This document shows, one piece after another, positions 4,337 through 11,716 of a stretch of DNA of 64,000 bases (its first letter is position 1; each line of letters begins with the position of its first letter). The notes beneath the pieces are model-generated. The model was not told where the DNA came from, did no database searches, and saw only the letters and a list, made by a program, of their open reading frames with translations. This stretch comes from Bacteroidota bacterium (GTDB lineage Bacteria > Bacteroidota > Bacteroidia > UKL13-3): NCBI GenBank assembly GCA_040388375.1, contig JAZKBU010000011.1:1-64000 (forward strand), written 5' to 3'. The position numbers and the translations under genes were made by a program.

Positions 4337-4912
4337 TTAGTTGTTCAACTTTTTTTGAATAGCATCAATAGCCGTCCAGAAATGAGATTGAATTTCATGT
4401 AACACATCAGTTCCGTAAGCGTGAACATAAGTGTTGATAATGACGTCTAAATTAAGCACTTCAGGCATTTCTTTCACCTGCCATACCTTACCTACCTCTC
4501 CAGTACTTTCTGCTGCTGTAGTGGAGGCGATAAATGTTACAAGATCAGGGAACGGGTTTTCACCCAATGTAATCGGATATGCGCCCCGTCCGTTACCAAC
4601 AGTATAAGCATTGATTATTTGCTGTTTCTCAACTTCAATGTAGTATGAAAGCCAATGTAATAAGTTCCCTTTATCAATAGTATCTCCTTTAATGGCTTTT
4701 ATTTTATCCATCATTGTTTTAATTGCAGTTTGCCCAACTGCCATTTCTGCTGCTGTAGTGGATGTATTAAAGTGCTGATGAGTAGCACAAACTAAGTCCA
4801 CAAGCATGTGGTCATCTACAGCTATTTTAATTGGAGTATTTGAAATGGATATTCCAAAATACTTTTCTACGATTAATTCATACTGGCAGCGATTTGATTT
4901 TTCTAATAACAT
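4337..4912 (-). CDS. hypothetical protein with repeated TTAA(E) motif
   Basis: I place the start at the ATG at 4912 (protein begins MLLEKSNRC) because the longer frame would run into the upstream gene, which stops at 4923, and an A-rich leader precedes this ATG. About 191 residues, helical, no known domain. Two copies of an STTAAE motif are encoded by an 18-bp direct repeat (4508-4525 and 4745-4762). Confidence 0.65.
   Translation of the reverse strand: MLLEKSNRCQYELIVEKYFGISISNTPIKIAVDDHMLVDLVCATHQHFNTSTTAAEMAVGQTAIKTMMDKIKAIKGDTIDKGNLLHWLSYYIEVEKQQIINAYTVGNGRGAYPITLGENPFPDLVTFIASTTAAESTGEVGKVWQVKEMPEVLNLDVIINTYVHAYGTDVLHEIQSHFWTAIDAIQKKLNN
4508..4762. repeat. 18-bp direct repeat pair, third partial copy at 5131-5145
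   Basis: TTCTGCTGCTGTAGTGGA occurs at 4508-4525 and 4745-4762, and a shorter version (GGCTGCTGTAGTGTC) at about 5131-5145. In the minus-strand genes all three encode a TTAA peptide. Confidence 0.7.
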
Positions 4913-7361: not shown

Positions 7362-7967
7362 TTAATTAAATTTACTTTCTATCAATCTTAGTTTTGCCCG
7401 TAGGTCTATCAATAAACTTTTAAGTTCTTCTCTTGACCATTTGTAAGGCTCTCTTGCTATTTCTTGTAACTGTTGTGATAAGCCATTTTGTTCTTCATCA
7501 AGTTTATATGCAAACACCTCTAAATTACCGTCTAAAGTTTCGTTGCAATGTTTACAGCAACAACGATTAGCCCTGAAATCCCATCTTGTTAAAGTATTGG
7601 CACGTTTTATAAAATGGGATAACTGCATCATGCTCCAATGTTGCTCCTTCCCACAAGTAAAACAATTTGCATAACCGAATTTATTTGCCGCCGTCATTCT
7701 TACTATTCGACTATGAACGTAATCCAAATCATTAATCAATGCTTGCCGTTCAGCTTCAAAATAATTCCCTTCACTTACCTGCTTATTTCCTAAACTTCTT
7801 ACCCTTTGATTTAAACTTGCTTTTTGTGTGTACTTTTTAACCTTAATTTCTTTGTTGCATTTTAAGCAAACCAGTTCTTTTCCCAACTTAACTACATCAG
7901 TATCTTTTGCCCCACATTTAGAACAATCACCGAACTTACATTTATTTATTGTGGGTGTATATGCCAT
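7362..7967 (-). CDS. ninG: NinG/Rap-family recombination protein
   Basis: A 201-residue protein matching lambda NinG (Rap), which binds and resolves branched recombination intermediates. Evidence: two N-terminal C-x2-C pairs (CSKCGAK, CLKCNKE), the basic middle, and the diagnostic block CFTCGKE, then QLSHFIKRANTLTRWD and CNETLDGNLEVF, with conserved cysteines and histidine suited to metal binding. Length is close to the family's usual ~200 residues. It sits between an HTH protein and small early genes; a role in phage recombination during replication is likely. Confidence 0.88.
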   Translation of the reverse strand: MAYTPTINKCKFGDCSKCGAKDTDVVKLGKELVCLKCNKEIKVKKYTQKASLNQRVRSLGNKQVSEGNYFEAERQALINDLDYVHSRIVRMTAANKFGYANCFTCGKEQHWSMMQLSHFIKRANTLTRWDFRANRCCCKHCNETLDGNLEVFAYKLDEEQNGLSQQLQEIAREPYKWSREELKSLLIDLRAKLRLIESKFN

Positions 7968-9756: not shown

Positions 9757-9773
9757 ATAAATTTAAAAAAGAT

Positions 9774-9803
9774 TTTGAAATATCAAAATAGTCCTTATCT
9801 TTG
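9774..9803 (+). promoter_or_regulatory. divergent promoter of the tandem RNA region
   Basis: TTTG (9774-9777), 18-base spacer, TATCTTTG (9796-9803). It fires away from the early operon into 550 bases that contain no gene. Only 17 bases separate the -33 boxes of the two divergent promoters. Confidence 0.75.
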
Positions 9804-9808
9804 TCCAA

Positions 9809-9985
9809 GTTCTTTAAAAAATAGGGTTGATATACAGGGTTGTGGTGTAAATGAAATAGCACACTTTATTAAGTTAAAGCCGACAACTGGAAATCCGGAG
9901 TATAGGTAAGGTGTTTGTAAAATACAGTCTTAATAAAAAGGATAGGGAGGTACAAATCCGCCCAACCCTGCATATCAACGTTATT
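9809..9985 (+). ncRNA. structured RNA domain A
   Basis: The 17-base segments 9826-9842 and 9963-9979 are complementary at 16 of 17 positions and enclose ~120 nt. Inside are a nine-pair helix TTTATTAAG/CTTAATAAA (about 9866-9874 with 9932-9940) and a hairpin GGGAGG/CCGCCC-like helix just before the closing strand. No open frame. This is the pattern of a multi-branched structured RNA. Confidence 0.7.
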
Positions 9986-9991
9986 TAAAAA

Positions 9992-10068
9992 AGTATTTAC
10001 CCTTTACTGCACAATAATCATAAACCTCTTTTTTTGGGGTTGAGATAAAAGCATATTTGGTAAATATT
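9992..10068 (+). ncRNA. structured RNA domain between A and B
   Basis: AGTATTTACC (9992-10001) pairs with GGTAAATATT (10059-10068), one G-U pair, and encloses a hairpin AACCTC (10023-10028) / GGGGTT (10036-10041) with a T7 loop. It begins right after domain A and ends two bases before domain B. Confidence 0.55.
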
Positions 10069-10070
10069 AA

Positions 10071-10244
10071 AGCTGTTGTTCTTTGTTATGTGGTGGAAAG
10101 TACCGATGAAGTGGCGAGCGGATTCGGGAATATACACATAAAAAAATGTTCGCATTATTAGTTCTATGGAACGACAAGCATAGAAATGCAGGTACACGGG
10201 AAATAACTTACCAATCCTGCCATAACAAAGGACACAGCTTTTTT
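10071..10244 (+). ncRNA. structured RNA domain B with terminator-like end
   Basis: Segments 10071-10090 and 10221-10239 form 19 pairs with one bulge and one G-U. The interior holds GCGAGC/GTTCGC (10114-10119 with 10148-10153), hairpin GTTC-tatg-GAAC (10161-10172), and GCAGG/CCTGC (10188-10192 with 10216-10220), which abuts the closing stem. Six T follow directly (10239-10244), as in an intrinsic terminator. Confidence 0.7.
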
Positions 10245-10253
10245 AAAAGTTCT

Positions 10254-10343
10254 TTAAGTACAGTATAAATAAACCCGGACATTTTAACAAATGGCTTTTA
10301 TCGTCCAGCAATCGGATGGGGTGAATAAAGCGACTGTACTTAA
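10254..10343 (+). ncRNA. structured RNA domain C
   Basis: TTAAGTACAGT (10254-10264) and ACTGTACTTAA (10333-10343) are perfectly complementary over 11 bases. Inside, CCC/GGG, GGAC/GTCC and a hairpin CATTT-taac-AAATG nest in order. A short T run and A run follow. Confidence 0.6.
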
Positions 10344-10357
10344 TTTTAAAAAATAAA

Positions 10358-10388: not shown

Positions 10389-10525
10389 ATACCGCTACAA
10401 ACAATAAATTAAACCAATAACACGATGTTAGTTCAGATTAAGTTATTATCTTTGCTTCACTTCACGCCACTACAAATATCAGGCGTTCGTTTTAATATGG
10501 TTTATTTTATTGCGTAGCAGCACAG

Positions 10526-10554
10526 GCCGATGGTTAACTCCATTGGCTTTTTTT
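10526..10554 (+). terminator. terminator-like hairpin at the start of the 10.5-kb gene
   Basis: GCCGATGG (10526-10533) pairs with CCATTGGC (10540-10547, one G-U), followed by seven T (10548-10554). A further hairpin ACGCC/GGCGT lies at 10464-10486. The stem includes the first ATG of the downstream frame, so this may be an attenuator in a leader RNA. Confidence 0.6.
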
Positions 10555-11297
10555 ATATTCAAAAACAATATTGTTGCTACTTGCGGAATACAGTTTTTAT
10601 ACCAGTAAAGTTGATTAAGGAGGCATCTAATGATGGGTGGCTAAAGTCAGTATCTTACTTTGTGCGTATGAAAAGCCTATATAGAAACAATACTTTTTAT
10701 AATTATTCATTAAGGAGGTTAGGTGAAGTTGTTAAATGTAGTCCTGCGTGTTTGGCGGCTCATTTAAAGATACTTGAAGCTAAAGGGTTAATATCATTCC
10801 ATAATGGGAATATAACCTTTGCAGGGCTTGGAAAATTACAATCAATGTACGGGATCAAAAATATAGGAGTTCCGGTAGATATAAATAACAATTTTAAAAA
10901 CCAATACGATATTTTAAGAGGGCAGATAATACGATTTAACTTAGCCTCACAACAACATAGAATAAATAAGTCTGAATTACAACATTGCAGGGATAAATAC
11001 GTTCCTAATACAAAAAATGAAAAGATGAATAGTTCTTATGTAGGTTTGTCAGCAAATGGAATTGGTAACTTGTTTTCTTTATCAATGGCAACAGGTAGCC
11101 GGATAAGAGGTAAATTAAAAAACCTTAATCAAATATCTGTTAAAAGACGTTTTTCCAAATTGTTATGGGTTAACTCTTATAATGATTTTATTAACTTGAA
11201 ACGTATTGGGGTTATACCTATCTATTCATTATTTAATAATGGCTTAGTGGTTAAAGAGGTAAGACCTGAAATGCAGTACAACTATTGCCCTGCATAA
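10530..11297 (+). CDS. putative winged-helix replication or regulatory protein
   Basis: A frame of 255 residues from the ATG at 10530. YSLRRLGEVVKCSPACLAAHLKILEAKGLISF (about 63-95) is a winged-helix core, and a second HTH-like unit, LSANGIGNLFSLSMATGSRIRGKLKNL, lies near 175-200. Two such units occur in phage replication-initiation proteins and regulators. The 5' end is uncertain: the first ATG lies inside a terminator-like hairpin, and the next ATG (10668) would remove conserved-looking sequence, so a non-ATG start such as TTG at 10581 is possible. Confidence 0.65.
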   Translation: MVNSIGFFYIQKQYCCYLRNTVFIPVKLIKEASNDGWLKSVSYFVRMKSLYRNNTFYNYSLRRLGEVVKCSPACLAAHLKILEAKGLISFHNGNITFAGLGKLQSMYGIKNIGVPVDINNNFKNQYDILRGQIIRFNLASQQHRINKSELQHCRDKYVPNTKNEKMNSSYVGLSANGIGNLFSLSMATGSRIRGKLKNLNQISVKRRFSKLLWVNSYNDFINLKRIGVIPIYSLFNNGLVVKEVRPEMQYNYCPA

Positions 11298-11311
11298 GTA
11301 GTTTACAAAAA

Positions 11312-11716
11312 ATGAACACGAAAAAACTAAATATAACTTTAAAAAAATATTACAAAGGATGGAAACCTGTAACTGAAATAAGACGTTCATTCTTTATATG
11401 GACAGGTAGTTATTCAAATAGCATAAAGGAAAAAGAAATATACAAGATACTTAAAAGACATAATCTAAGGTTTTACTGCGAAATATCATTTGATATGATT
11501 AAAAGATTTGACTTCTATATTCCTTTACTGGACTTAGTTATTGAATATGACGGTGGGCAACACTTTTCAAGTATCAAAAATATTAACAACGATATTGGAA
11601 AGGAAAGTCAGTTAAAAAAGTTAGGGGTAAAGTTGATACGGTACAATAAAACTCATAACTTAACAGACCAAATAAAGCATGATTTAATTCACCATCCTGT
11701 ACTTTCAGGGATATAG
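11312..11716 (+). CDS. PD-(D/E)XK endonuclease, DUF559/VSR-like
   Basis: Starting at the ATG at 11312 the protein has 134 residues. FDFYIPLLDLVIEYDGGQHF gives the D...E-Y-D-G-x-Q-H active-site signature, followed by LKKLGVKLIRYN, as in very-short-patch-repair-like and DUF559 nucleases and in stand-alone phage endonucleases. It could be a free-standing homing nuclease or a recombination nuclease. It lies directly after the winged-helix gene. Confidence 0.8.
   Translation: MNTKKLNITLKKYYKGWKPVTEIRRSFFIWTGSYSNSIKEKEIYKILKRHNLRFYCEISFDMIKRFDFYIPLLDLVIEYDGGQHFSSIKNINNDIGKESQLKKLGVKLIRYNKTHNLTDQIKHDLIHHPVLSGI

Follow-up and report, generated by a model that had tools for sequence, protein, structure and literature searches.

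A structured RNA region with a degenerate tRNA-like domain in the control region of a Bacteroidota phage contig, and its possible kinship with interrupted phage tRNAs

The stretch of DNA analysed here (the window) covers bases 1–64,000 of a contig of 69,403 bases, which showed no terminal overlap, and it encodes a phage terminase that is distantly related to proteins of Flavobacterium and Cellulophaga phages. Between a leftward operon that contains the NinG gene (7362–7967) and a rightward operon lies a stretch of about 550 bases that the first-pass annotation had described as free of genes, and no credible gene was found to overlap it. The promoter that had been noted before the region was recognized as a Bacteroidota-type match on the + strand (9773–9803; TTTG at 9773–9776, 19 nt, then TATCTTTG at 9796–9803), which reads into the region and was identified by eye from the consensus only. 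An inverted repeat (TTTTGA..TCAAAA, 9772–9791) lies in the upstream half of this match and is a possible operator. When NinG was searched for in a collection of genome contigs and in 395 genomes of the class, it was found in its own genome only and no relative was recovered.

The next rightward unit has its own promoter matches and a leader terminator, both beyond the structured region. This terminator (10524–10559) stands before a wHTH-like ORF (10530–11297), the true start codon of which is probably further downstream, and it is kept in a related phage locus, L022, where the protein of the downstream gene is 82% identical. DNA similarity to L022 begins only at window position 10518, and the L022 sequence further upstream reads as protein-coding. 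Because L022 shares the downstream gene while the upstream DNA differs, the RNA behaves as a separable cassette, as seen at one contig end. An HNH/DUF559-like homing-endonuclease ORF is present in both sequences (window 11285–11716; L022 1248–1690); colinearity with L022 breaks inside this ORF and resumes with window 12516–12076 inverted.

Four domains, A to D, follow one another on the + strand, and their closing stems were found where the first-pass annotation had placed them: 16 of 17 positions pair in A (9826–9842 with 9963–9979), 10 of 10 in B (9992–10001 with 10059–10068) and 11 of 11 in D (10254–10264 with 10333–10343), and in C 14 of 14 pair (10077–10090 with 10221–10234) before 10071–10076 continues with 10235–10240 past a bulge. 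The U6 run that had been assigned to the end of B lies instead after domain C (10239–10244), the T7 of B lying in its hairpin loop. The argument that four such stems exceed chance did not hold, since shuffled sequences contained a mean of 5.1 helices of at least 9 bp against the 4 observed; stem counting is not the argument because shuffles of the same composition hold equally many long helices. What is exceptional is the fold energy. When the suggested folding was carried out, the whole region folded about five standard deviations better than dinucleotide shuffles (z = −5.0, with 0 of 100 shuffles as good), and 9810–10250 gave z values of −5.2 on the + strand and −3.8 on the − strand and energies of −120.4 and −99.9 kcal/mol, respectively. 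This excess is carried by domain A with its outer stem extended beyond the acceptor (9819–9985; z −4.9) and by the branched domain C (10071–10244; z −5.0); the AT-rich hairpin domain B (9992–10068; z −2.8) and domain D with its 11-bp closing stem (10254–10343; z −3.3) are weaker. Judged by its fold, the gene-free structured region is real.

As had been anticipated, the region matches no Rfam family: no match reached the gathering level, none at E≤10 was credible, and those at high E were chance matches. A multi-part structured phage RNA outside the Rfam families is thus supported by fold energy and by the Rfam search, whereas no support was found for a packaged structural RNA; a defence or anti-defence RNA, also proposed in the first-pass annotation, is a possible identity. 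By blastn, the region had no homologue among phages and 196 relatives and matched only itself in its own genome. No homologue of A or C was found in which covariation could show. We also rejected the idea that A and C are duplicates of a single RNA: their alignment similarity gave p = 0.03, and a shared-motif scan returned 11 chance matches.

The core of domain A (9836–9970, + strand) has the geometry of a tRNA, which the first-pass annotation had not seen, although its reading of a structured RNA stands. A 7-bp acceptor (AGGGUUG/CAACCCU) is followed by U8 and G9, a 4-bp D-stem (GUGU/GCAC) that closes a 10-nt loop, a single base, an extended body, a 5-7-5 T-arm (GGAGG-UACAAAU-CCGCC) abutting the acceptor, and a discriminator base; pairing is 7/7 in the acceptor, 4/4 in the D-stem and 4/5 in the T-stem, which carries an A-G mismatch. 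A strict scan of the 64 kb on both strands for tRNA shells with a body of at least 40 nt, its T-loop pattern set to admit A, returned 9836–9970 as the sole match; by chance such shells occurred 0.3 times per shuffled window and in 0.4% of shuffled regions. With introns allowed and a lowered threshold, ARAGORN reported this element too, as one of several overlapping candidates of low score. A covariance model built from A alone gave seven cross matches when run on other phage loci totalling about 1 Mb; four of these matches fell on tRNA genes, although these fill 3.1% of the strand space there; the structure of the model included the tRNA shell, so that neither this test nor the shell scan was blind. 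In 395 genomes of the class, the same model found one weak 54-nt match, which reads as an intergenic terminator.

The Rfam tRNA model (RF00005) found no match anywhere in the window, even at E≤10, and did not accept A. Neither loop has the tRNA elbow signature: the D-loop (AAAUGAAAUA) is without the GG of G18G19, and the T-loop is UACAAAU, not UUCRANY. The anticodon UAA together with a 5-nt variable region does not describe a normal tRNA-Leu. A tmRNA identity was rejected, with no tmRNA call by ARAGORN and no match to the Rfam tmRNA models. On its sequence, domain A is best described as a degenerate tRNA-like element.

Its anticodon stem appears to be interrupted by a putative insert of 60 nt (approximately 9867–9926, + strand). 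Only once these 60 nt are removed would A have a 5-bp anticodon stem and a 7-nt loop with U33 (CUUUU-CUUAAUA-AAAAG; p 0.007–0.011); the breakpoint lies after nt 30 or 29 and is ambiguous by one base. Enforcing this arm made the precursor 13 kcal/mol worse than its minimum.

Domain C closes with a 20-bp stem followed by the U6 run, a terminator-like end, and we infer that it is the 3′ part of the same transcript. By eye, C suggests a tRNA with a 16-nt interruption of the T-loop (UACA[16]AAU), a reading that was not supported by either of two tests, insert removal and the coincidence of matches to a model of C (R1) with tRNA genes. R1 matched the host genome weakly, best in an apparent respiratory (nuo-type) gene, and its matches in about 1 Mb of phage loci did not overlap tRNAs by coordinates.

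Two related phage loci, L037 and L166, share NinG with the window at 61% and 63%, respectively. In L037, the divergent control region contains two tandem tRNAs in the same orientation; Rfam scores them at 48.0 and 37.4 bits and leaves 53 and 41 nt of their anticodon regions unaligned. At the same locus, L166 has a tRNA-Cys(GCA) of 62.3 bits, and an interrupted tRNA that was found by ARAGORN and missed by Rfam lies further down. Between the interrupted elements of L037 and L166 there is no difference over 56 insert positions but there are 12 over 53 positions of the shells (Fisher p 9e-5), and the first tRNA of L037 differs from L104 at 4 of 67 insert and 15 of 53 shell positions (p 0.002); therefore, conservation is higher in the insert than in the surrounding tRNA. 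A genome scan for the L037/L166 insert returned 14 matches, all without a tRNA shell, which we read as chance. Directly behind the tRNA-Cys, L166 also has a short RNA (4640–4710, − strand) with an acceptor-like stem (UGGUUCA/UGAACCA) and a perfect T-arm, leaving no room for D- and anticodon arms.

The locus also has a feature in common with rRNA leaders. Two copies of a boxA-like element, AAGTTCTTTAA, lie on the + strand at 9807–9817 and at 10247–10257; both agree with AAAGTTCTTTGA of the host 16S rRNA leader at 9 of 9 core bases. The pattern AAGTTCTTTRA occurs in the window at 9807 and 10247 only, with 0.26 occurrences expected per 64 kb on both strands. Because the promoter match is so close, the first copy may straddle the transcription start. 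The form AAGTTCTTT is common to the window, L037, L166 and the host rRNA leader, and in L037 and L166 it stands immediately 5′ of the first tRNA. This placement is not general among the other phage tRNAs examined, being found before 7 of 875 against 3.2 expected.

Taken together, the tRNA geometry, the recovery of an anticodon arm and the locus shared with tRNA-bearing relatives make a connection of this RNA with tRNA probable. The explanation we favour, to which we give an even chance, is that the region is a stable-RNA (tRNA-type) cassette that starts the rightward transcript of the phage, that A is a degenerate tRNA-like element with an anticodon-stem insert of about 60 nt, and that it belongs with the interrupted tRNAs that are widespread in phages but little described, of which L037 and L166 have better preserved members at this locus. 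Transcription would start near 9808, and the boxA-like leader, by analogy with rRNA operons, would recruit Nus factors, which would let polymerase through the untranslated structured RNA. The tRNA shell would then fold and be trimmed in tRNA fashion to a stable RNA bearing the insert, and domain C with its U6 run would end most transcripts. Because its D-loop is without GG, A would act not as a decoding tRNA but as a tRNA-shelled non-coding RNA; where relatives have intact elements, splicing may remove the insert and yield a functional tRNA.

We weighed three other explanations. In lambda nut and HK022 put, boxA or structured RNA stands at the start of phage early transcripts, and the region could likewise be an antitermination leader that alters RNA polymerase and lets it pass terminators downstream, the tRNA likeness of A being incidental. 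The position directly behind a promoter in a divergent control region, the two boxA-like copies, and the terminator in the leader of the next gene (10524–10549), kept in L022, all suit such a leader; yet put RNAs measure about 65 nt and form two hairpins, against 440 nt here, real tRNAs occupy the site in relatives, the downstream gene has its own promoter matches beyond the region and the first boxA copy may not be fully transcribed, so that we regard this explanation as unlikely. We judge equally improbable an unrelated structured regulatory or counter-defence RNA in which the tRNA geometry of A is a coincidence: it agrees with the strong fold, with the outcome of the Rfam tRNA search, with a second strong domain, C, that is not tRNA-like, and with a chance of a shell match in the region that is small but not zero (0.4%), but it needs the geometry, the restored anticodon arm and the shared locus all to coincide. 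That the inverted repeats work at the level of DNA and not RNA, as parts of an operator array or a replication origin, is very improbable, for although the region lies between divergent transcription units and D forms a perfect inverted repeat of 11 bp, folding of the + strand is 20 kcal/mol more favourable than that of the − strand, the arms are 57–130 nt apart with nested hairpins between them, and the tRNA geometry is on the + strand only.

The group to which the favoured explanation assigns A was surveyed by a pattern scan of IMG/VR for tRNAs with 60–90 nt between the D- and T-arms, with acceptor and T-arm checked afterwards, and at least 110 distinct expanded phage tRNA elements were kept. 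Among the matches listed, 109 were scored, A included, against 200 shuffles per body searched identically, with the best breakpoint taken by score: insert removal restored a normal anticodon arm in 57 of 109 at p≤0.05 and in 43 of 109 at p≤0.01, and the insertion points in these listed matches clustered after nt 28/29 and after nt 33. Many restored loops look ordinary, such as CUGUUAA, CUUGUAA, CUGAUAA, CUUUUAA and CUGUCAC, which we take to be those of Asn, Thr, Ile, Lys and Asp, respectively. One type of insert, class I (alignment A3; loci L046, L056, L060, L064, L066, L079, L089, L091, L109, L112, L123, L138 and L140), is 39–57 nt long, lies after nt 28/29 and consists of a covarying hairpin followed by aCnGCAA; its removal leaves canonical anticodon arms. 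Across 16 such inserts, chosen partly by the shared motif and not by pairing, all 7 hairpin pairs show covariation (92.9% of cells are paired, compared with 63.4% when shuffled and at most 55% when slid). The insert of A was rejected as class I, as it lacks aCnGCAA after the insert hairpin, and class I inserts were rejected as tmRNA-like tags, their reading frames being inconsistent.

A second type (L051, L061, L129 and L137), without the aCnGCAA motif, lies after nt 28 and has a C-rich hairpin and a 3′ end of GUUAC or GUUAU. Of the inserts after nt 33, several resemble tRNAs in their own right and have CCA ends, like those of Lak phages (PMC6784885). Such tRNA-like elements are nested in the anticodon loop of another tRNA at L111 361–514, L140 11193–11346, L140 11814–11939, L135 5789–5906 and L158 990–1141, and several of these five end in CCA. 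Over the inserts in the scanned loci, Rfam returned no credible family besides tRNA. The evidence for the class of interrupted phage tRNAs is stronger than that for the element in the window.

To our knowledge, bacterial tRNA introns have so far been known mainly as group I introns. tmRNA has a tRNA-like domain in which the anticodon arm is replaced by other RNA, and domain A resembles it in this respect; however, no tag reading frame or pseudoknot chain was identified. Relative to RF00005, A has the acceptor, D-arm and T-arm geometry, and real tRNAs lie at the same locus in L037 and L166, but A differs in being rejected by the model, in its D-loop without GG and in its 60 extra bases. Unlike lambda nut and HK022 put, the window RNA is much longer, with tRNAs in its place in relatives. 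The closest precedent found is in the Lak megaphages, the tRNAs of which have predicted short intervening sequences, described as 'enigmatic introns', some tRNA-like, with no known removal mechanism (Devoto et al. 2019, PMC6784885). Lak are Prevotella phages of about 540 kb, whereas here a 69-kb contig has a single degenerate element with its insert in the anticodon stem; set beside the Lak interruptions, the arm of A is normal after removal at p ~0.01, but the surrounding tRNA is degenerate. In a search directed mostly at openly accessible literature, we found no other report of short phage tRNA introns. For phage tRNAs that evade tRNA-cleaving defences, two reports indicate that the anticodon region matters against host nucleases (PMC10264068, PMC11555353); the changes described there are anticodon-loop mutations (PMC10264068), compared with a 60-nt insert here.

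We tentatively suggest, as a possibility that we hold less probable than its opposite, that A is a diverged member of a large unrecognized class of phage tRNAs with structured, covarying anticodon-stem inserts of about 40–60 nt that belong to no Rfam intron family, and that are either excised by an unknown, perhaps self-splicing, mechanism or retained, the tRNA then serving as the scaffold of a functional RNA payload. From the window it can be seen how far degeneration of such an element may go at a locus that keeps its structured leader, and the interrupted phage tRNA class is a more valuable lead than the window's own element. It offers a small, testable system; if short inserts whose removal leaves correct anticodon arms are indeed common in the anticodon stems of phage tRNAs, they would represent either a new bacterial splicing chemistry or natural tRNA-scaffolded RNAs, and would bear directly on the unexplained introns of Lak phage tRNAs.
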